In this document: positions 1,295-57,026 of the stretch, piece by piece
Layout of the letters: each line of letters begins with the position of its first letter
How positions within the stretch are numbered: the stretch's first letter is position 1
Program-made: the position numbers and the translations under genes
The notes under the pieces: generated by a model
The model's input: the letters and a program-made list of their open reading frames with translations, nothing else
What the model was told of the DNA's origin: nothing
Database searches by the model: none
Source of the DNA: Pedobacter ginsenosidimutans
GTDB taxonomy: Bacteria; Bacteroidota; Bacteroidia; Sphingobacteriales; Sphingobacteriaceae
NCBI RefSeq assembly: GCF_001442625.1
Contig: NZ_LMZQ01000003.1
Location: 248,001 to 312,000 of the forward strand
Reading direction: 5' to 3'
Length of the DNA: 64,000 nt

Positions 1295-1308
1295 ATTCTT
1301 TGAAATTG

Positions 1309-1382
1309 CTCCCTCTGCTGGGCTCGAACCAGCGACCCTCTGATTAACAGTCAGATGCTCTAACCAGCTGAGCTAAGAAGGA
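1309..1382 (-). tRNA. tRNA-Asn (anticodon GTT)
   Basis: Seventy-four bases fold into a complete cloverleaf: seven acceptor pairs (one G-T), D arm AGCTCAGCTGGTTAGAGC, anticodon stem TCTGA/TCAGA around loop CTGTTAA with GTT anticodon, and T arm with GGTTCGAGCC. Discriminator is G at 1309; no CCA is encoded. It is the only intact member of a four-copy array between 807 and 1497. Confidence 0.95.
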
Positions 1383-23898: not shown

Positions 23899-24003
23899 GC
23901 CGCACATAATGCTAATTTTAGGCGCTATTTGTTATCATTTTATTAAGAAAATATAAAGACCAAAGCAAAAAGAGTAAAGGAGAAAGAATAAAGCGAAACC
24001 CGT

Positions 24004-24136
24004 CGTCATCTCGACTGGAACGCAGTGGAATGTTCCAAAGGAACTCCTTCGGAGGAGAGATCTATCTATACAGATTTAGCTCCGCTGAGCCTTCGGGTTC
24101 TCGACTTCGCTGCACCCGATAGCTATCGGGTCCGCT
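24004..24136. repeat. Composite REP element with CCCGATAGCTATCGGG core
   Basis: Outer arms CGTCATCTCGACTGG and CCGCTCGAAATGACG pair. Inside lie several nested palindromes: GGAATGTTCC, CTCCTTCGGAG and CCCGATAGCTATCGGG. The last is the same type as the palindrome that replaces the anticodon arm in the tRNA-Asn pseudogenes. It fills most of the 375-base gap between two minus-strand genes. Confidence 0.8.
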
Positions 24137-24152
24137 CGAAATGACGGTAGAA

Positions 24153-24180
24153 GCGCTAAAACAAAAAATCCCGGCACAAA
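24153..24180 (-). terminator. Terminator of lpdA
   Basis: AATCCCGGTA pairs with TGCCGGGATT around TTTG, followed on the minus strand by six T; 65 bases after the lpdA stop. Confidence 0.85.
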
Positions 24181-24200
24181 TACCGGGATTGCTAATCATT

Positions 24201-24236
24201 TTAAAAACAGATACTGAACCAAGTTCAGTATGACAG
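24201..24236. repeat. REP right-arm remnant
   Basis: ACTGAACCAAGTTCAGTATGACA is a self-complementary right end of the REP family, directly behind the lpdA stop codon. Confidence 0.5.
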
Positions 24237-24244
24237 CTTAATAA

Positions 24245-25651
24245 TTAAATATGTATCGCTCTATTATCAGTTGCGGCAAGCGCAGCTTCTTTTAACGCTT
24301 CAGTATAAGTTGGATGCGCATGGCAGGTACGTGCAATATCTTCTGCAGATGCACGAAATTCCATTGCGATAACTGCTTCTGCAATCATATCCGCTGCACG
24401 CGGGCCAATCATGTGTACACCTAAAACTTCATCAGTAGCAGCATCAGCCAAAACTTTAATGAAACCATCGGTATCCATACTCGCCTTTGCACGTCCACTG
24501 GCTTTGAAAGGAAATGAGCCTGCTTTATATTTTATGCCTTTTTCTTTTAACTGCTCTTCGGTTAAACCTACAGAAGCAACTTCCGGCCAGGTATAAACCA
24601 CGCCAGGGATTAAGTTATAATTGATATGTGGTTTCTGACCAGCAATTGTTTCGGCAACATAAGTGCCTTCATCTTCTGCTTTATGTGCCAACATGGCGCC
24701 AGTAATTACATCACCAATAGCATAAACACCTTTAACCGAAGTTTCTAAATGCTCGTTAACCGGGATTTTTTTTCCTCTTTCTTCAACAGTAATACCGATT
24801 TTATCTAAACCTAAACCTTCGCTATAAGCCGTACGACCAACAGCAACAATACAATAATCTGCCTCTAAAGAAATTGATTCGCCTTTAGGAGTATCAGCCG
24901 TAACGGTTACCGTTTTACCTTTAGTGGTGGCCCCAGTAACTTTGTGGCCCATGTAAAACTCCATGCCTAAAGTTTTCTTTAACACACGTTGAAGTTCTTT
25001 ACCCAAACCAGCATCCATGGTACCGATGATAGATGGTAAAAACTCAACAACAGATACTTTTGTACCTAAGCGGGCGTATACCGAACCTAACTCTAAACCA
25101 ATTACACCACCACCGATTACCACCATCGTTTTTGGCACTTCTTTAATATTTAAAGCCTCGGTTGAGGTAATAATGCGTTTTTTATCGATTGGCAAAAATG
25201 GTAAAGCTGTTGGTTTAGAACCTGTAGCAATGATTACGTTTTTAGCAGTTAAGGTTTCTGTAGAACCATCGGCTTTAGTTACCAGAATGGTATTTTTATC
25301 TACAAAAGAGCCAACACCTTCGAAAGAATCGATTTTATTTTTCTTGAACAAATAAGTGATACCAGCTGTATTTTGGGCAACAACATCGTCTTTACGGGCG
25401 ATCATTTGTTTCATATCAACCTTTAAATCTTTTAAGTTGATACCATGGGTAGTGAAGGTGTGAGCAGCGTTGTGAAAATGCTCTGAAGAATCTAATAAAG
25501 CCTTAGATGGAATACAACCTACATTTAAGCAAGTACCTCCAAAAGTTTTATATTTTTCAACAACTGCAGTTTTTAAACCTAACTGAGCACAACGGATTGC
25601 GCCTACATAACCGCCCGGCCCTGAACCGATAACAACGACATCGTATTGCAT
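24245..25651 (-). CDS. lpdA: Dihydrolipoyl dehydrogenase
   Basis: A 468-residue flavoprotein disulfide reductase that reoxidises dihydrolipoyl groups of 2-oxoacid dehydrogenase complexes with NAD. FAD fold GSGPGG at 9-14, redox-active cysteines C41 and C46 in GGTCLNVGC, the NAD-binding GGGVIGLELGS, and the catalytic His-Glu pair in HAHPTYTEA (H446, E451). An in-frame TTG nine codons upstream exists, but it lies inside a perfect -7 box (TACATTTG at 25676-25683), so the ATG at 25651 is the start. No E1/E2 genes adjoin. Confidence 0.96.
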   Translation of the reverse strand: MQYDVVVIGSGPGGYVGAIRCAQLGLKTAVVEKYKTFGGTCLNVGCIPSKALLDSSEHFHNAAHTFTTHGINLKDLKVDMKQMIARKDDVVAQNTAGITYLFKKNKIDSFEGVGSFVDKNTILVTKADGSTETLTAKNVIIATGSKPTALPFLPIDKKRIITSTEALNIKEVPKTMVVIGGGVIGLELGSVYARLGTKVSVVEFLPSIIGTMDAGLGKELQRVLKKTLGMEFYMGHKVTGATTKGKTVTVTADTPKGESISLEADYCIVAVGRTAYSEGLGLDKIGITVEERGKKIPVNEHLETSVKGVYAIGDVITGAMLAHKAEDEGTYVAETIAGQKPHINYNLIPGVVYTWPEVASVGLTEEQLKEKGIKYKAGSFPFKASGRAKASMDTDGFIKVLADAATDEVLGVHMIGPRAADMIAEAVIAMEFRASAEDIARTCHAHPTYTEALKEAALAATDNRAIHI

Positions 25652-38001: not shown

Positions 38002-39657
38002 ATGAAAAAATTACTATTCATTCTTACCACTGCCCTCAGCATTTCAACTTTACAAGCACAAATGCTCGGCAAAAACCAGGTAAATTCAAGGGCCGATAGC
38101 CTCCGCGGAACACTTACCCCGCTACGTACCTGTTACGATATCAATTATTACCACCTGGATGTGAAGATCGATATCGATCAAAAATCTGTTAGCGGCAGCA
38201 ATGAATTTGCTTTTACCGCCACACAGGATTTTACCAAATTACAGTTCGATCTTTTTGATAATTTAAAAGTTGATAAAGTGGTATATAAGGGTGCCGATTT
38301 ACCTTTTACCCGAGAATACAATGCGGTTTTTGTAACCTTCCCTAAAGCTGTAAAAAAAGGAAGCAAAGATAAATTTACTGTTTTCTATTCTGGTAATCCT
38401 ACTGTAGCCAAAACACCACCCTGGGATGGCGGTTTTATCTTCAAAAAAGATGAAGCCGGCAATCCTTTTGTTTCTGTGGCCTGCCAGGGTTTAGGTGCAA
38501 GTGTGTGGTGGCCGAATAAAGATCACCAGAGCGACGAGGTAGATAGTATGTTAATCAGCATTAGTGTTCCTAAAACTTTACAGGAAATATCTAATGGAAG
38601 ACTGAGAAATACTGTAGATAAACCCGATGGTTATAAACAATACAATTGGTTTGTCGCTAATCCCATCAACAATTACGATGTAACCTTTTACATTGGCAAA
38701 TATGCCCACTGGCAAGATAGTTATGATGGTGAAAACGGAAAACTCAGCATCGATTACTGGGCGCTGCAAACCGATAGCGCCAAAGCCCGCCCACATTGGG
38801 ATGCCGACGTTAAACCCATGTTAAAATGTTTCGAATATTGGTTTGGTCCTTACCCATGGTACAAAGACGGATACAAATTGGTTCAGGCACCACATTTAGG
38901 TATGGAACACCAAAGCGCAGTAGCTTATGGCAATCAATTTAAACCAGGTTATTTAGGCAAAGATTTAAGCGGTACCGGACATGGTTTAAAATGGGATTTC
39001 ATCACCATCCATGAGAGCGGCCACGAATGGTTTGGCAATAACATCACCTCGAAAGATATTGCCGATATGTGGATTCACGAAGGTTTCACCAATTATTCGG
39101 AGGTATTGTTTACCGAATGTACCGAGAACAAAGCGGCAGCAAACGAGTATGTAATCGGATTACAGAAAATTATCCAAAACGATATTCCGGTTATTGGCCC
39201 TTATGGTGTAAATAAAGAAGGTTCAGGCGATATGTATCCAAAAGGTGCAAATTTGATTAGTACCATCCGCCAGTTGATTAATAACGATGAAAAGTTCAGA
39301 CAGATTCTTCGCGGCCTAAGCAAAACATTTTACCATCAAACGGTAACCACTGCTCAGATCGAAAATTATATAGCCAAACAAAGCGGGCTTAAACTGGATA
39401 AAATTTTCGATCAGTATTTACGTTTTACCAAAATCCCTGTGTTAGAATATAAAATCAACAACGGCACTTTATCTTATCGCTGGACAACCGATGTTAAAGG
39501 TTTTGATATGCCTGTGCGCGTAACATTAAAAACAGGTGCTTACACCTTGATTAAACCTACAAACAATTGGAAAACAATTAAAGTAGATGCCAGCATAAAT
39601 GCAGATAACTTTAAACACGATCCGTTGTTTTACATCAATACAAAAAAGGGTAATTAA
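38002..39657 (+). CDS. M1 family zinc metallopeptidase
   Basis: A 551-residue exported aminopeptidase-like enzyme. Signal peptide ends near LQAQ; an N-terminal saddle domain precedes the thermolysin-like domain. Zinc motif HESGH at 337-341 with third ligand E360 in WIHEGFTNYSE, and the exopeptidase motif appears as GMEHQS near 300. At 551 residues it lacks the large C-terminal helical domain of PepN-like members, as usual for Bacteroidota M1 proteins. It follows two S15-like hydrolases in the same direction with gaps under 100 bases, suggesting joint peptide degradation in the periplasm. Confidence 0.93.
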   Translation: MKKLLFILTTALSISTLQAQMLGKNQVNSRADSLRGTLTPLRTCYDINYYHLDVKIDIDQKSVSGSNEFAFTATQDFTKLQFDLFDNLKVDKVVYKGADLPFTREYNAVFVTFPKAVKKGSKDKFTVFYSGNPTVAKTPPWDGGFIFKKDEAGNPFVSVACQGLGASVWWPNKDHQSDEVDSMLISISVPKTLQEISNGRLRNTVDKPDGYKQYNWFVANPINNYDVTFYIGKYAHWQDSYDGENGKLSIDYWALQTDSAKARPHWDADVKPMLKCFEYWFGPYPWYKDGYKLVQAPHLGMEHQSAVAYGNQFKPGYLGKDLSGTGHGLKWDFITIHESGHEWFGNNITSKDIADMWIHEGFTNYSEVLFTECTENKAAANEYVIGLQKIIQNDIPVIGPYGVNKEGSGDMYPKGANLISTIRQLINNDEKFRQILRGLSKTFYHQTVTTAQIENYIAKQSGLKLDKIFDQYLRFTKIPVLEYKINNGTLSYRWTTDVKGFDMPVRVTLKTGAYTLIKPTNNWKTIKVDASINADNFKHDPLFYINTKKGN

Positions 39658-39667
39658 ATCCCAGCAG

Positions 39668-39796
39668 CTATATCATAAATATAGAATTTGTCATCCTGAG
39701 CTTGTCGAAGGACTTAGTTAAATACGCTTTTATGTGTTTCGACAGGCTCAACATGACAAAATCGGAAGAGAAACTACCTTCATGATACAGCTTCAT
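39668..39796. repeat. Extended REP element, copy 1 of a direct pair
   Basis: The usual REP core (TGTCATCCTGAGCTTGTCGA at 39689 to CTCAACATGACA at 39758) is enclosed by an outer pair, TATCATAAATATAG on the left and ATGATACAGCTTCAT on the right. The same extended form occurs at 40760-40906, on the other side of the GIN-domain gene. Confidence 0.75.
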
Positions 39797-39920
39797 TTTT
39801 GAGCATGGCCGAATACCACTGATAAAGAGAATTAAATTTCATCTTATGCAACTTTTCAACAAAACCATCGTCTTATAAGAAAAAGCTCATTATTTATCTA
39901 AAAAAATAAAATCTATACCC

Positions 39921-52000: not shown

Positions 52001-52031
52001 AAAAGCTTTGCAGCAATGCAAAGCTTTTTTT
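52001..52031 (+). terminator. Terminator of the 51651 gene
   Basis: AAAAGCTTTGCA pairs with TGCAAAGCTTTT around GCAA, followed by T; 36 bases after the stop. Confidence 0.88.
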
Positions 52032-52042
52032 ATGAGAAATAT

Positions 52043-52152
52043 CGTCATTGCGAGAAGGAACGACGAAGCAATCTCACCCTTTATAAAATTCTTAATTTGA
52101 TGCTTCATCATTGTTCTAGCGCATTAAGATTGCTTCGTACCTCGCAATGACG
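52043..52152. repeat. REP variant, CGTCATTGCGAG type, complete
   Basis: CGTCATTGCGAGAAGGAACG ... GATTGCTTCGTACCTCGCAA then TGACG: complementary ends about 110 bases apart. It lies just past the serS stop codon, between convergent transcripts. Confidence 0.8.
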
Positions 52153-52164
52153 ATTTATCTAAGA

Positions 52165-53436
52165 CTAATCAATAATATCAAAACCAGTATATTTCACTAA
52201 AGCCTCCGGAATTTTAATTCCGTTTTCGGTCTGGTAGTTTTCTAAAATAGATGCCACAATACGCGGTAATGCCAATGCGCTTCCATTTAATGAGTGCGCC
52301 AGTTGTGCCTTCCCTTCTTTTCCTTTAAAGCGTAATTTTAAACGGTTACTCTGATAAGTTTCGAAATTTGATACAGAAGAAACTTCTAACCAACGCTCTT
52401 GTGCAGCACTCCACACCTCCATGTCATAAGTCATGGCAGAAGTAAAGCCCATATCACCACCGCATAAACGCAACACGCGGTAATGCAATCCCAGCTCCTT
52501 CAATAAAGACTGAACATATTGGCTCATATCTTCTAAGGTTTCGTAAGATTTATCAGGATGCGTAATCTGCACCACTTCAACCTTATCAAACTGGTGTAAG
52601 CGGTTTAAACCACGTACGTGTGCTCCATATGAGCCCGCTTCTCTACGGAAACAAGGCGTATAAGCGGTATTTTTAATTGGAAGATCTTCTTCTTTAACAA
52701 TTACATCACGGTATAAATTGGTTACCGGAACTTCGGCTGTTGGGATTAAGTATAAATCATCAACAGTTGAATGATACATCTGTCCTTCTTTATCTGGTAA
52801 CTGTCCGGTGCCAAAACCCGAGGCCGCATTAACCAAATGAGGTACCTGCATTTCTTTATAACCTGCTTCAGTAGCATGATCTAAAAAGAAATTAATCAGG
52901 GCACGTTGTAACTTTGCTCCTTTTCCTTTATAAACCGGAAAACCAGCGCCAGTAATTTTTACACCCAATTCGAAATCGATAATATCATATTTCGCAGCCA
53001 ATTCCCAGTGCGGCAAAGCCTTATTTGGTAATTTAGCAGGCGCTCCATGCGTTAGAACAACTTCGTTTTCTTCCGCCGTAGATCCTTGCTTTACCAAATG
53101 ATATGGCAAATTAGGCAATTGAACAATTAAATTATGTTGAGCGGCTTCCAACTCATTTAATTTATCACTCAGGTTTTTGATATTTTCTTTATGAGAAGCC
53201 GTTTGTGCTTTAATCGCCTCGGCTTCTTCTTTTTTACCAGTACGCATTAAATCGCCAATTTGTTTGGCAGCTGCATTCGCTTCAGCAGAAATATTATCCA
53301 GGGAAGTTTGTGTAGAACGGCGGTCCTCATCAATTTTAATGATTTCATCTACCAGTTCTGGCTGTTTAAAATTACGGACACTTAAACGTTCTAAAACTTT
53401 CTCTCTATTTTCGCGGATATAGTTAACTTGCAGCAT
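52165..53436 (-). CDS. serS: Seryl-tRNA synthetase
   Basis: A 423-residue class II aminoacyl-tRNA synthetase charging tRNA-Ser. The N-terminal coiled-coil arm (residues about 30-100) binds the long variable arm of tRNA-Ser; class II motif 2 is seen as TPCFRREAGSYGAHVRGLNR LHQF and motif 3 as HSLNGSALALPRIVASILEN. Motif 1 lies in LQRALINFFLDHATEAGYKE. Length is normal for the bacterial enzyme. It is monocistronic and divergent from rsmI; a palindromic repeat occupies the region between. Confidence 0.97.
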   Translation of the reverse strand: MLQVNYIRENREKVLERLSVRNFKQPELVDEIIKIDEDRRSTQTSLDNISAEANAAAKQIGDLMRTGKKEEAEAIKAQTASHKENIKNLSDKLNELEAAQHNLIVQLPNLPYHLVKQGSTAEENEVVLTHGAPAKLPNKALPHWELAAKYDIIDFELGVKITGAGFPVYKGKGAKLQRALINFFLDHATEAGYKEMQVPHLVNAASGFGTGQLPDKEGQMYHSTVDDLYLIPTAEVPVTNLYRDVIVKEEDLPIKNTAYTPCFRREAGSYGAHVRGLNRLHQFDKVEVVQITHPDKSYETLEDMSQYVQSLLKELGLHYRVLRLCGGDMGFTSAMTYDMEVWSAAQERWLEVSSVSNFETYQSNRLKLRFKGKEGKAQLAHSLNGSALALPRIVASILENYQTENGIKIPEALVKYTGFDIID

Positions 53437-53452
53437 TATTTAATTTTTTAAG

Positions 53453-53460
53453 CAAAGATA
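53453..53460 (-). promoter_or_regulatory. -7 box TATCTTTG of serS
   Basis: Perfect TAnnTTTG on the minus strand, 17 bases before the serS ATG, giving a leader near 10 bases. The -33 position (GTTC) is inside the REP element and matches poorly. Confidence 0.4.
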
Positions 53461-53470
53461 ATAATTAAGT

Positions 53471-53562
53471 CGTCATTGCGAACGCAGTGCGGCAATCTCC
53501 CAACAAAAAGATTGCTTCATCGTTCCTCTCCGAGAAATCGGAGCCAGTTCTTGCAATGATGG
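53471..53562. repeat. REP variant between serS and rsmI
   Basis: CGTCATTGCGAACGCAGTGC on the left; AGCCAGTTCTTGCAATGATGG on the right, with an inner CTCCGAGAAATCGGAG hairpin. It fills most of the 138-base divergent promoter region. Confidence 0.75.
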
Positions 53563-53574
53563 ACACAGAAAAAT

Positions 53575-54288
53575 ATGGATGGCAAACTATTTCTCGTACC
53601 AACGCCCATAGGCAATTTGGAGGATATGACCTTTAGGGCAATCCGGATATTAAAAGAATGCGATTTAATCCTCGCCGAAGATACCCGTACCAGTGCCCCA
53701 ATGCTGAAACATTTTGGTATAGATAAAAGAGTTTTCTCGCACCATCAGCACAATGAACATAAGGCCACTTCCGAGATTATCAAGTTTTTAAACGAAGGAC
53801 AAAAAATTGCCCTAATATCTGATGCCGGAACTCCGGCTATTTCCGATCCTGGTTTTTTCCTGGTACGCGAAGCCATTAAAAATGATATTGCAGTAGAATG
53901 TTTACCTGGTGCAACAGCTTTTGTGCCTGCTTTGGTTAACTCAGGCCTACCTGCAGATGCGTTCTGTTTTGAAGGTTTTTTGCCGGTTAAAAAAGGCAGG
54001 CAGACAAAATTTAAAAAGTTAGCTGAAGAAGACCGCACCATTATACTTTATGAAAGTCCGCATCGTTTATTAAAAACTTTAGAGGAGTTTGCGCAGTATT
54101 TGGGTGCCGATAGGCAGGCCTCGGTAAGTAGAGAGCTCACCAAGATGTTCGAAGAAACGGTTCGTGGAACTTTGGTAGAAATAAAATCACATTTTGAAAA
54201 CAATACTTTAAAAGGAGAATTTGTAATTTGCATAGCGGGGAAACCCAACATTAAAAGCAAAAACAAATATGAAGATGCTGAAGATTAG
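53575..54288 (+). CDS. rsmI: 16S rRNA (cytidine(1402)-2'-O)-methyltransferase RsmI
   Basis: A 237-residue SAM-dependent tetrapyrrole-methylase-fold enzyme that methylates C1402 of 16S rRNA in the ribosomal decoding centre. It begins LFLVPTPIGNLEDMTFRAIR, with EDTRTSAPMLKHF, the SAM loop LISDAGTPAISDPGF and PGATAFVPALVNSGL, and ends with GEFVICIAG. Length is a little shorter than the E. coli protein because the C-terminal HTH domain is absent, as is usual in Bacteroidota. Cytoplasmic. The next gene follows after 38 bases. Confidence 0.95.
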   Translation: MDGKLFLVPTPIGNLEDMTFRAIRILKECDLILAEDTRTSAPMLKHFGIDKRVFSHHQHNEHKATSEIIKFLNEGQKIALISDAGTPAISDPGFFLVREAIKNDIAVECLPGATAFVPALVNSGLPADAFCFEGFLPVKKGRQTKFKKLAEEDRTIILYESPHRLLKTLEEFAQYLGADRQASVSRELTKMFEETVRGTLVEIKSHFENNTLKGEFVICIAGKPNIKSKNKYEDAED

Positions 54289-54326: not shown

Positions 54327-54980
54327 ATGATTAGCATAGATAGATTTCTGAGTGACGAACAAGACCCAAAAGCGGTTGAAAAAGTTATTGGAAAATTAAA
54401 CGACCTTTTAACAGCAGGCGAAGAACTTTTATATTTAGCTGTACAGAAAAAACCAGCGGTAAACTTGTTACCAGATAGTATAGCAATTTCGAATAAGCGT
54501 ATTTTTTATTGCGAGCCAGGTAATTTAGGTTTAACCATGAACTTCAAAGATATTTCGTGGAAAAGCATTAAAGAGGTTTCATTTAAAGAAGAGTTTTTTG
54601 GTTCTAAATTTATCTGTGTACCACAACATGGCGAAAATATCGTAACCGAATTTATTCCGAAAGTACAGGCGCGTAAATTACATCAGGCTGCGAACCAGCA
54701 ATTGGATGAGTATAAGGAAATGCTCCGTCAGCAAAAACTGGAAGAAAACCGTGCAACGGCTTCCCCAATCAATTTAAATGCTCAACCTCTTGCCGAAATT
54801 CCTGCTTACGAACCAACTCCTGAGCCAGTACAACCCGTTATTCAAATAGCTGAAGTTGTAGAAGAGCCAGAAGACGAAACCACATTAAAATTACGCAAGC
54901 TTAAAACTTTGTACGATAAACACCTCATTACTCAGGAAGAATACGAAGCTAAAAAAGCAAATATTTTAGATAGTTTGTAA
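54327..54980 (+). CDS. PH-like domain plus SHOCT protein
   Basis: A 217-residue cytoplasmic protein. A bacterial pleckstrin-like region (residues 15-130) with LPDSIAISNKRIFYCEPGNL and EVSFKEEFFGSKF; then a Pro-Glu-rich linker and a C-terminal SHOCT motif, LRKLKTLYDKHLITQEEYEA KKANIL, a short helix pair common at protein ends. The molecular role is unknown, perhaps oligomerisation or membrane association. Immediately downstream lies a repeat-bounded GIY-YIG pseudogene. Confidence 0.85.
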   Translation: MISIDRFLSDEQDPKAVEKVIGKLNDLLTAGEELLYLAVQKKPAVNLLPDSIAISNKRIFYCEPGNLGLTMNFKDISWKSIKEVSFKEEFFGSKFICVPQHGENIVTEFIPKVQARKLHQAANQQLDEYKEMLRQQKLEENRATASPINLNAQPLAEIPAYEPTPEPVQPVIQIAEVVEEPEDETTLKLRKLKTLYDKHLITQEEYEAKKANILDSL

Positions 54981-54989
54981 GTAAAAGGC

Positions 54990-55019
54990 CGTCACCCTGA
55001 ATTTATTTCAGGGTCTTAA
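54990..55019. repeat. Left inverted half of the GIY-YIG-carrying REP
   Basis: CGTCACCCTGAATTTATTTC then AGGGTCTTAA is the left arm of a REP element. Its inverted partner is 55366-55393. The GIY-YIG gene lies between the arms, where a normal REP has only a loop. Confidence 0.75.
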
Positions 55020-55031
55020 TTGATGTAAAAG

Positions 55032-55325
55032 ATGGAAAGAGGCGGATGCGTTTATATATTAAGCAATTTTAAACATACAGTTCTTTATATTGGCGTAACA
55101 TCAGAATTGTATTTCAGGATTAAAGAACATAAAGATAAGTATTATCCTAATTCATTTTCTGCAAGATATAATTGCAATCTTTTGGTGTTTTTTGAACAAT
55201 TTGACAGTATTGAAGAAGCCATAATAAGAGAAAAGCAATTAAAGAATTAGAAAAGGTCATGGAAAATAACCTTAATAAATGAATTAAATCCTAACTGGGA
55301 TGATTTATTCTTAACACTTGAATAA
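55032..55325 (+). pseudogene. GIY-YIG endonuclease gene with one nonsense codon
   Basis: The 98-codon frame encodes a UPF0213-type GIY-YIG nuclease: VYILSNFKHTVLYIGVTSEL with GIY-equivalent VYI and YIGV, R and KEHKDKYY, and the C-terminal EAIIREKQLKN. At codon 73 (55248) TAG stands where the family has Trp (N-W-K-R), and the frame then continues cleanly as KRSWKITLINELNPNWDDLF to a stop at 55323. So a single TGG to TAG change would break an otherwise full gene; suppression or a sequencing error is not excluded. It lies between inverted halves of a REP element and seems to be that element's cargo. Confidence 0.8.
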
Positions 55326-55365
55326 CTGCTCCGCTCCTTTAAGCCCTTATAATAAAACAGCATTT

Positions 55366-55393
55366 AAGATGCTGAAATAAATTCAGCATGACG
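55366..55393. repeat. Right inverted half of the GIY-YIG-carrying REP
   Basis: AAGATGCTGAAATAAATTCA then GCATGACG is the reverse complement of the left arm at 54990-55019 in about 24 of 29 positions. Confidence 0.75.
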
Positions 55394-55409: not shown

Positions 55410-57026
55410 ATGAAATCTAAACAAACCTACCTCCTCGCCCTCTTAAGTGCATTTTTACTTTGGCTAGCCTGGCCACCAATGCCTTTTACTACACCATTAT
55501 TACTGATTGGTTTGGTTCCTTTATTCATTGCACTCGATTCCATTTCATACAGTGCTAAAAAAAAGCAAGGAAAAAGAATTTTCTTGACTGCCGGCTTAAC
55601 ATTTTTGGTTTGGAATACAGCATCAATTTATTGGGTGTACAATGCTATAAGTGCGTATAATGGTACAGCAGTAGCCCTTCCAGTTTCTTTAATTCCTTAT
55701 GGATTAGGTGCGCTTTTAATGACTTTTGCTTTTTGGTTATACTATCGATTGGGCAAATACGTAAATAAAAAGATTGCGTACCTGGGCTTAATTGCCTTTT
55801 ATATCGCTTTAGAATATTTGCAGCAAACCTGGGATTTAGCCTTCCCCTGGATGACCTTAGGTAATGGTTTAGCAGGGATGCATCAGCTGGCGCAATGGTA
55901 TGATTATACTGGCGTTTACGGAGGTTCATTATGGATTTTAGTGAGTAATATCCTAGCTTTTGAAGCCTACAAGAAATTTAAATCACAAACAGGTTATTTA
56001 AGATTTAGAACCGCCGGAATCTGGGCTTTAATAGTGATTATTCCCATCGGCATTTCATTAACCAAATACTTTACTTCCGAACAGAAAGGGACACCAAGCA
56101 ATGTGGTGGTGGTTCAACCGAATATCGATCCTTATCAAAAACTGGAAAGTATACCGGTTTCTGAACAGCTCAAAATTTTAACACACCTTTCCGATTCGGT
56201 TGGGCAAAGCAATACAGAATATTTTATCTGGCCAGAAACAGCAATACCGAGCCGTGCCGACGAAGATCGGATCAGATCTAATCCTGATTTTTATGCCCTC
56301 CAAAGTTTCTTAAGCAAATACAAAAACGGAACACTGATTACTGGAATTGAAAGCATAAAAATCTACCAGACCAAAAAAACACTTTCAGCAAAGTACGATC
56401 CGCAAAGCAACCAGTATTGGGATAATTTTAACACGGCCATGCAAGTAGAAAACTCTGCAAATGTTCAGTTTTACCATAAATCTAAATTAGTACCAGGTGT
56501 AGAAAAAATGCCTTTCCCTAAAGTGTTTTCATTTTTAGACGGTGTTTTTGCTGAACTTGGTGGAGCTGTTGGTGGATGGGGCTGGCAGGAGAAACCAGGT
56601 GTACTTTATGCGCAGAGTGGAATTGGTGCGGCACCCGTAATTTGTTATGAAAGCCTATGGGGCGAATGGGTTGCTCAATCGGTTAAAGATGGGGCACAAT
56701 TTATTGCTATTATCACCAATGATGGCTGGTGGGGAAATACCTCAGGTAAAGACCAGCACATGATGTACGCCAAACTTAGGGCAATTGAAACCCACCGCGA
56801 TGTGGCCCGTTCTGCAAATACAGGCATTTCTTGTTTCATCAATCAACGTGGCGACGTAACGCAGAGCACCAAATGGTGGACGAGAACTGCAATAAAGGCC
56901 AACATTAACCTAAACGACGAGATTACCTTTTATGTAAAAAGCGGAGACATTATTGCGAAAATGTTGAGTGTTTTAGCAATTATCTTAGCCTTGATTATCC
57001 CTTATAGAAAATGGGTAAAAAAATAA
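55410..57026 (+). CDS. lnt: Apolipoprotein N-acyltransferase Lnt
   Basis: A 538-residue inner-membrane enzyme that adds the third acyl chain to the N-terminal Cys of lipoproteins. Six or so membrane segments (residues 5-220) lead to a periplasmic nitrilase domain: the catalytic triad is suggested by FIWPETAIPS (Glu), HKSKLVPGVEKMP (Lys) and APVICYESLWGEW (Cys). The C-terminal membrane helix closes it. The next gene is lspA 32 bases on, so two lipoprotein-maturation enzymes are co-transcribed. This fits the many lipoproteins in the window, including GldB. Confidence 0.95.
   Translation: MKSKQTYLLALLSAFLLWLAWPPMPFTTPLLLIGLVPLFIALDSISYSAKKKQGKRIFLTAGLTFLVWNTASIYWVYNAISAYNGTAVALPVSLIPYGLGALLMTFAFWLYYRLGKYVNKKIAYLGLIAFYIALEYLQQTWDLAFPWMTLGNGLAGMHQLAQWYDYTGVYGGSLWILVSNILAFEAYKKFKSQTGYLRFRTAGIWALIVIIPIGISLTKYFTSEQKGTPSNVVVVQPNIDPYQKLESIPVSEQLKILTHLSDSVGQSNTEYFIWPETAIPSRADEDRIRSNPDFYALQSFLSKYKNGTLITGIESIKIYQTKKTLSAKYDPQSNQYWDNFNTAMQVENSANVQFYHKSKLVPGVEKMPFPKVFSFLDGVFAELGGAVGGWGWQEKPGVLYAQSGIGAAPVICYESLWGEWVAQSVKDGAQFIAIITNDGWWGNTSGKDQHMMYAKLRAIETHRDVARSANTGISCFINQRGDVTQSTKWWTRTAIKANINLNDEITFYVKSGDIIAKMLSVLAIILALIIPYRKWVKK

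Follow-up and report, generated by a model that had tools for sequence, protein, structure and literature searches.

A probable REP-nuclease unit before lnt in Pedobacter ginsenosidimutans: a broken GIY-YIG gene between outward-facing CGTC-tagged repeats

Introduction

Why would a small nuclease gene lie between the two halves of one palindromic repeat? The locus that raises this question is part of a 64,000-nucleotide stretch of the Pedobacter ginsenosidimutans genome (contig NZ_LMZQ01000003.1, positions 248,001 to 312,000), here called the window. According to the available part of Di Nocera, De Gregorio and Rocco (2013, PMC3733652), bacterial REPs include two large super-families, and those with a CGTC tag make up one of them. 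The same text describes tags of CGTC or TGTC, stems of 8-9 bp, loops of 4-5 nt and an arrangement mostly as inverted dimers. Stem positions 1 and 2 are almost invariably A-T, and most of the short unpaired tails fit CCA. It reports these repeats as without association to transposase genes, and states that they 'apparently lack a dedicated transposase'.

We propose that the feature is probably a decayed REP-nuclease unit, that is, a GIY-YIG gene within an outward pair of its own CGTC REPs, which the nuclease would have mobilised.

A GIY-YIG gene between two tagged hairpins

The unit spans positions 54990-55393 of the window on the forward strand and consists of a left REP of type A, a small GIY-YIG nuclease gene and a right REP of type B. 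To its left is a 217-aa ORF (54327-54980, forward strand) that presumably has a SHOCT-like C-terminus. To its right is a 538-aa ORF (55410-57026, forward strand), which the initial annotation called lnt and which we take to be this gene. The right neighbor is matched in all 119 genomes of the genus, and the end of the 217-aa ORF forms the left border in each of the 30 gaps before lnt that we read.

The inverted arms are real and reach further than first annotated. They form a 37-nt pair (54990-55026 and 55357-55393) that is 84% complementary across a 330-nt spacer and ranks first among 20 inverted pairs reported window-wide at a spacing of up to 600. Each arm is also a hairpin on its own, in which CGTC stays unpaired and a stem of 8 bp closes a 5-nt loop. 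The folding z-scores are -5.71 and -6.47, and none of 200 shuffles folds equally well. The left REP (54990-55014, forward strand) has the stem ACCCTGAA/TTCAGGGT and the right REP (55369-55393, reverse strand) has the stem ATGCTGAA/TTCAGCAT. Paired changes distinguish the two stems, the loop is TTTAT in both, and both CGTC tags face outward. The arms are the two halves of a single REP dimer. For ordinary REPs of the window the initial annotation gave 10-90 bases between arms, and one example (52035-52160) has 86.

With CGTC-tagged REPs as described in the available part of PMC3733652, the arms share the CGTC/TGTC tag, the 8-bp stem opening with A-T and the 5-nt loop. The first stem pair is A-T in both arms, and the second is of the A-T type in the right arm only and C-G in the left. 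The tail is CTT in both arms, in contrast to the usual CCA. This is no excluding feature because most, not all, tails fit CCA in that part of the paper, and CCA tails are present in other arms that flank GIY-YIG genes (e.g., L022, L064 and L067). We conclude that the arms fit CGTC-tagged REPs in all but the tail and the left arm's second stem pair.

The enclosed gene (55032-55325, forward strand) is broken by one in-frame TAG at 55248-55250, which leaves an open part of 72 aa. The initial annotation had noted this stop and placed it where the family has Trp, a remark that fits the relatives. The frame matches PF01541 with an E-value of 1.4e-11 for the 72 aa before the stop and 9.3e-14 when read through. 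The domain spans residues 5-78 of the 97-residue read-through frame, indicating a single-domain GIY-YIG protein. Searches of NCBIfam and PHROGs with the protein gave no match. The only two solved structures with a sequence match at E <= 0.01 are BH0048 (PDB: 1zg2, E = 2.7e-13) and EF2693 (PDB: 1ywl, E = 1.5e-10).

Repeats of the same type in the genome and genus

In 464 kb of the genome, near copies with up to 5 mismatches number 11 for the type A arm and 18 for type B, two sets that overlap, compared with none in Markov sequence. An exact pattern of the A/B repeat type has 66 copies in the genome (27 forward, 39 reverse). Across the 119 genomes of the genus it has 0 to 294 copies, with at least one in 73, and the backwards control yields none in any of them, the window genome included. 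The genome also has dimers of these arms that enclose no gene, for example at 86461 and 192303 of C3:1-200000; the starts of their arms are separated by 36 and 40 nt, and the arms match with 0 to 2 mismatches. Where tagged hairpins of any kind are neighbors in the 464 kb, 20 pairs face outward, 4 face inward and 1 points in the same direction. Counted loosely, GTCA-tagged hairpins of every sort number 130 in these 464 kb against a Markov expectation of 112-153, which is not in excess. We dropped this measure, since a generic count within expectation leaves only the specific repeat types and the dimer arrangement as informative.

The genome also carries other palindromes. The commonest perfect 14-nt palindrome in the 464 kb is CCGATAGCTATCGG, with 12 copies (one at window position 24116) compared with 3 for the next, and by eye about 9 of the 12 lie in REP-like contexts. 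At window positions 52020-52175, 53440-53590, 23955-24250 and 39650-39835, whole intergenic palindromic cassettes differ between related species while the flanking gene ends stay alike, as if these gaps were slots for alternative repeats.

Four GIY-YIG genes of the genome have four different repeat types beside them, which rules out one REP family for the whole window. The proposal in the initial annotation that the window's other REPs are the gene-free copies of this element would apply to the unit's own REP type only, since each of the other types accompanies a different GIY-YIG clade or clades.

Three other small GIY-YIG genes of this genome adjoin tRNA genes (Asn, Ser-gga and Leu-gag; the loci include L005 and L009). 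One lies in the window at 1031-1249 on the reverse strand, next to a tRNA-Asn (1308-1382, reverse strand) and a partial tRNA-Asn around 890-990. The partial copy carries a CCCGAT..ATCGGG insert similar to CCGATAGCTATCGG. By eye, these genes have a partial, altered tRNA copy nearby and no REP arms were noticed, and the units look aimed at tRNA genes.

Enclosure across phyla and within the genus

The gap before lnt holds various REP dimers in relatives, as it might if the gene merely sat by chance in a REP-rich gap. The enclosure was compared with random placements. From at least 547 relatives in genome contigs, the best 80 were taken and three near contig ends were dropped (L025, L051 and L081). 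The detector, which was defined after the arms of these same loci had been viewed, calls GTC followed by a perfect 5-bp stem starting with A, with tags outward and within 200 nt. The 77 loci come from several phyla, and in 42 of them it finds the gene flanked on each side by an outward CGTC-type hairpin, versus 5 of 2678 random placements in the same loci. No two-sided pair was detected in the remaining 35 loci, and 18 have a hairpin on neither side. Some two-sided matches look like chance (the right arms of L019 and L032 and the left arm of L034). The two-armed records are titled Bacteroidetes, Fibrobacter, Spartobacteria, Alpha-, Gamma- and Deltaproteobacteria, Clostridia, Roizmanbacteria, Treponema, Brocadiaceae, Omnitrophota, Dehalococcoidia and Mesoaciditogaceae, among others.

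Within the genus, 92 genes were considered, 90 of them by rank or choice among the matches listed, plus the window genome's own. Hairpins occur on both sides within 250 nt in 37 of the 92, versus 10 of 927 random placements; 55 have no two-sided pair and 20 have no detected arm. Enclosure and repeat type thus recur across phyla and within genomes far above controls, and we regard chance as scarcely credible.

The arrangement varies in detail. In Azospirillum lipoferum, listed as a CGTC carrier in the available part of PMC3733652, a GIY-YIG gene lies between sufB and sufC with CGTC dimers on both sides. There and in Pedobacter genome G016, the gene stands between two complete dimers and not inside one. 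Eight loci from a plasmid collection have CGTC-type hairpins on both sides in three cases within 200 nt and in four within 260 nt. In a further feature of this set, L282 (Novosphingobium) has hairpins on both sides whose stem opens with G; L283 has a hairpin on one side only, and L285 and L287 on neither. In the Planktothrix agardhii plasmid p1 (L286), a GIY-YIG gene with TGTC-type repeats on both sides sits between an annotated gene for the type IIL restriction enzyme MmeI and the DISARM gene drmA. Extra arm copies are not significantly enriched around 41 cross-phylum loci (Wilcoxon p 0.26), whose flanks have 39 copies in 534 kb (13 of the 41 loci have any) versus 163 in 21.4 Mb of foreign flanks.

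The same detector bears on a second explanation, in which HUH (Y1_Tnp/RAYT-like) transposases, the presumed movers of GTAG REPs, also mobilise the CGTC type and have GIY-YIG genes as mere bystanders. Y1_Tnp genes are indeed present in 67 of the 119 genomes, near the 68 of 119 with an A1-family GIY-YIG gene among the matches listed, and the window genome has 4 Y1_Tnp matches. Yet the best 30 Y1_Tnp loci of the genus, a control sample that the weaker matches of the window genome fall outside, have hairpins on both sides in no case and on one side in one. CGTC repeats are moreover not associated with transposase genes in the available part of PMC3733652. We consider this explanation very improbable. 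By eye, the Y1_Tnp genes of the genus (L288-L317) adjoin other repeats, some with GGTAG or GTTCCGTAGGAAC motifs, and these loci suggest that one genome can harbor RAYT-GTAG pairs alongside GIY-YIG-CGTC pairs.

Nuclease clades match repeat types

Related nucleases are accompanied by related repeats. Of the 92 genes in the genus, 72 have an arm detected on one side or both, and among these, protein and arm similarity correlate with a rho of 0.53, a value that none of 1000 permutations attains. With shuffling of arms confined to single genomes (21 genomes, 54 genes), again none of 1000 permutations reaches the observed value, and the null has a mean of 0.13 and a maximum of 0.34. Unsupervised protein and arm clusters share an adjusted mutual information of 0.57-0.80, versus at most 0.13 when permuted. 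The pairing has exceptions: with eight clusters, a single protein cluster contains two repeat types, and two of the repeat types are each divided between two protein clusters. Across phyla, the Mantel rho is 0.30 for 43 loci (0 of 2000 permutations).

Stem pairs 6-8 lie outside the detector criteria. Double changes at these pairs are paired in both arms in 13 of 16 cases across phyla and 18 of 20 in the genus. One-sided changes mostly break pairing, with pairing kept in both arms in 1 of 11 cases across phyla and 0 of 16 in the genus. The open GIY-YIG genes are under purifying selection, with dN/dS values of 0.035-0.192 (median 0.071) from 8 of 55 pairs, the other 47 being dropped for a dS that was undefined or not below 2.

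History of the copy before lnt

The gene is present in the gap before lnt in 10 of the 119 genomes, and an eleventh (G061) has a fragment nearby. It is open and nearly full length in G076, G005, G035, G087 and G112, has an in-frame stop in the window genome, G019, G004 and G102, and gives a shortened match in G003. By eye, the same A and B arms surround all five open copies; the detector finds both arms in four of them, G112 having a degraded left arm. Pedobacter relatives therefore do carry intact GIY-YIG genes between these arms, for which the initial annotation had suggested a search. Neither result that would have refuted that annotation was seen: genes in relatives do lie between such arms, and a gene at lnt without repeats is not the universal state.

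Among the 30 gaps before lnt that we read, four hold the gene and one, in G001, holds an A-B dimer without it, with 102 bp between the neighboring genes. In the remaining 25, inspection by eye shows different repeats of the CGTC or TGTC type in about 22. Three genomes that carry the gene at this site (G035, G087 and G112) are distant members of the genus, with Lnt identities of 70-72%. Because of their distance, the gene-less dimer of G001 is most simply read, from these sequences, as a loss of the gene. The window copy is an old resident of this gap.

Gene-less dimers, in the window genome and at the lnt site of G001, lend support to the annotated picture of an autonomous element with gene-less copies. 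The comparison of lnt loci with and without the element, which was suggested along with it, thus returned a gene-less dimer and no target duplication.

Signs of movement

The clade of the window gene, with repeats of the same type (CTGAA..TTCAG core), occupies about five sites including lnt. The A and B stems are not always identical among the repeats at these sites. The further sites are the gap upstream (G043 and G016), what we take to be a glycosidase-ferredoxin gap (G029 and G083), a position behind a presumably SRPBCC-like gene (G030, G040 and G048) and another place in G071. By eye, G003 and G099 have an empty glycosidase-ferredoxin gap; in G079, G076 and G062 a remnant or other repeats are seen there. 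Like units at different sites and empty sites are both seen, as in a mobile element. G114 has a tandem copy of a unit at a spacing of 511 (97% identity over the 300 nt compared), and in an array in G047 two units with the gene accompany several without it. A gene-less copy also lies beside a gene-bearing unit in G083 and, by eye, inner bases are common to both at both ends.

The mobility proposed in the initial annotation is thus supported by a second clade site that is empty in relatives, but by eye no target duplication, excision product or clean junction was found, and the flanks have diverged. None of nine gaps gave a readable insertion junction by eye when the window was aligned with five relatives. 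Palindromic gap fillers are often swapped wholesale between relatives.

A gene of the window's clade (identity at least 69%) is present in 21 genomes, in two of them as a partial match; the median number of exact repeat copies is 28 in these genomes, versus 1.5 in the other 98 (Mann-Whitney p 7e-6, a value that ignores relatedness). Among the matches listed, the median is 14 in 47 other genomes with some A1 gene and 0 in 51 without. Many copies also occur where a gene of the window's clade is absent (162 in G109, 92 in G001, 75 in G067, 74 in G009 and 68 in G093), or where no A1-family gene is found at E <= 1e-10 (53 in G117, 51 in G086 and 29 in G107). In G003 the gene is shortened, and the exact repeat pattern does not occur.

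Genomes with repeats and no gene would also be expected if the REPs came first, were moved by something else and were then invaded by the gene in the manner of a homing endonuclease, with the arms serving as target and repair homology. GIY-YIG is a classic homing-endonuclease domain, and the inner bases common to gene-less and gene-bearing dimers would also follow from insertion into a dimer. The presence of the lnt-site gene in distant members of the genus, which makes G001 most simply a loss, argues against this order of events, and we hold it to be improbable.

A regulatory role of the nuclease

The nuclease could instead act as a regulator, either of the host or selfish, by cutting the repeats cognate to it when DNA is single-stranded, as incoming DNA is in transformation. 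The REPs would then be its marks, and no transposition would take place. Ssn nucleases, GIY-YIG proteins of Neisseria described in a 2025 paper, reportedly cut specific repeats only in single-stranded DNA and modulate transformation. This behavior would speak for the regulator, as does a chromosome-sized gonococcal record of the plasmid collection in which a GIY-YIG homolog has CGTC-type repeats (CGTCATTCCCGCGCAGGCGGGAATC-type) on both sides within 260 nt. Purifying selection on the open genes and the long residence of the gene at lnt point the same way. By itself, however, a regulator accounts neither for gene-bearing units with same-type repeats at several sites nor for tandem arrays. As the whole explanation we find it rather unlikely, but it is compatible with the REP-nuclease unit and both can hold.

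Discussion

The sequences show that the gene is enclosed, that nuclease clades and repeat types correspond, that the open genes are under selection, and that gene-less dimers exist in the window genome and at the lnt site of a relative. The multi-copy repeat paired with a nuclease clade is presumably its target. TnpA_REP acts on single-stranded copies of the REP that is cognate to it, and enzyme and repeat have coevolved (PMC8266576, available part); by analogy the nuclease may cause the movement of the REP-nuclease unit.

We speculate that movement would begin when the locus becomes single-stranded during replication, repair or DNA uptake. The nuclease would recognise the tag and hairpin of its own REP type and cut beside it. 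Cuts at both arms could then allow the stretch between the tags, with or without the gene, to be copied or re-inserted elsewhere. Gene-less dimers would be the non-autonomous copies and the gene-bearing unit their source. In the window genome the gene is broken, so its REPs would now be inert or reliant on another enzyme.

Because related nucleases in other bacteria each have a repeat type of their own, enzymes of this kind may well be the partner that a large class of bacterial repeats has seemed to lack. A tentative generalization, of which we are less confident than of the reading of this locus, is that small GIY-YIG nucleases could be the dedicated enzymes of CGTC-tagged REPs across bacteria. 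They would form a second REP-enzyme system, parallel to RAYT/GTAG and with an unrelated fold, in which each clade spreads its own dimers and gene-bearing dimers are the autonomous sources. If so, two unrelated nuclease folds came to pair with hairpin repeats. Genomes with several clades, such as this one, would then offer ready-made enzyme-repeat pairs with which to study the spread of such repeats and the recognition of a hairpin by a protein of only some 100 residues.

Among the titles and starts of abstracts listed in the literature searched, we found no report linking GIY-YIG genes with REPs. The term GIY is absent from the main text of PMC12306157 and PMC6006769, and PMC9465073 has a GIY-YIG gene and RayT within one gene list. 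The structural matches BH0048 (1zg2) and EF2693 (1ywl) are UPF0213 proteins listed as hypothetical and without a repeat association.

The closest parallel in organization is the REPtron, in which TnpA_REP (RAYT) goes with GTAG REPs (available parts of PMC8266576 and PMC3733652). Both systems combine a small nuclease gene with cognate hairpin repeats, and both bear signs of coevolution. REPtrons have an HUH (Y1) transposase and a GTAG tag, whereas the window unit has GIY-YIG and CGTC, and it is thus not a REPtron. With CGTC-tagged REPs, the repeats share inverted dimers, many copies and several types per genome; the available part of PMC3733652 reports no dedicated enzyme for them, whereas here GIY-YIG clades go with repeat types.

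The Ssn family, said to have been described in Nature Communications in 2025, reportedly comprises small GIY-YIG proteins with many homologs, each with its own repeated target sequence. The window protein is likewise a single-domain GIY-YIG protein, and the multi-copy repeat that goes with it may be its target. The Ssn study is said to be about cutting and transformation. It may cover part of the nuclease-repeat pairing, and if it reports flanking repeats, the pairing is already known. Even then, the link to CGTC-tagged REPs, the match within genomes of the genus and the evidence on distribution, loss and decay would be the contribution of this analysis.
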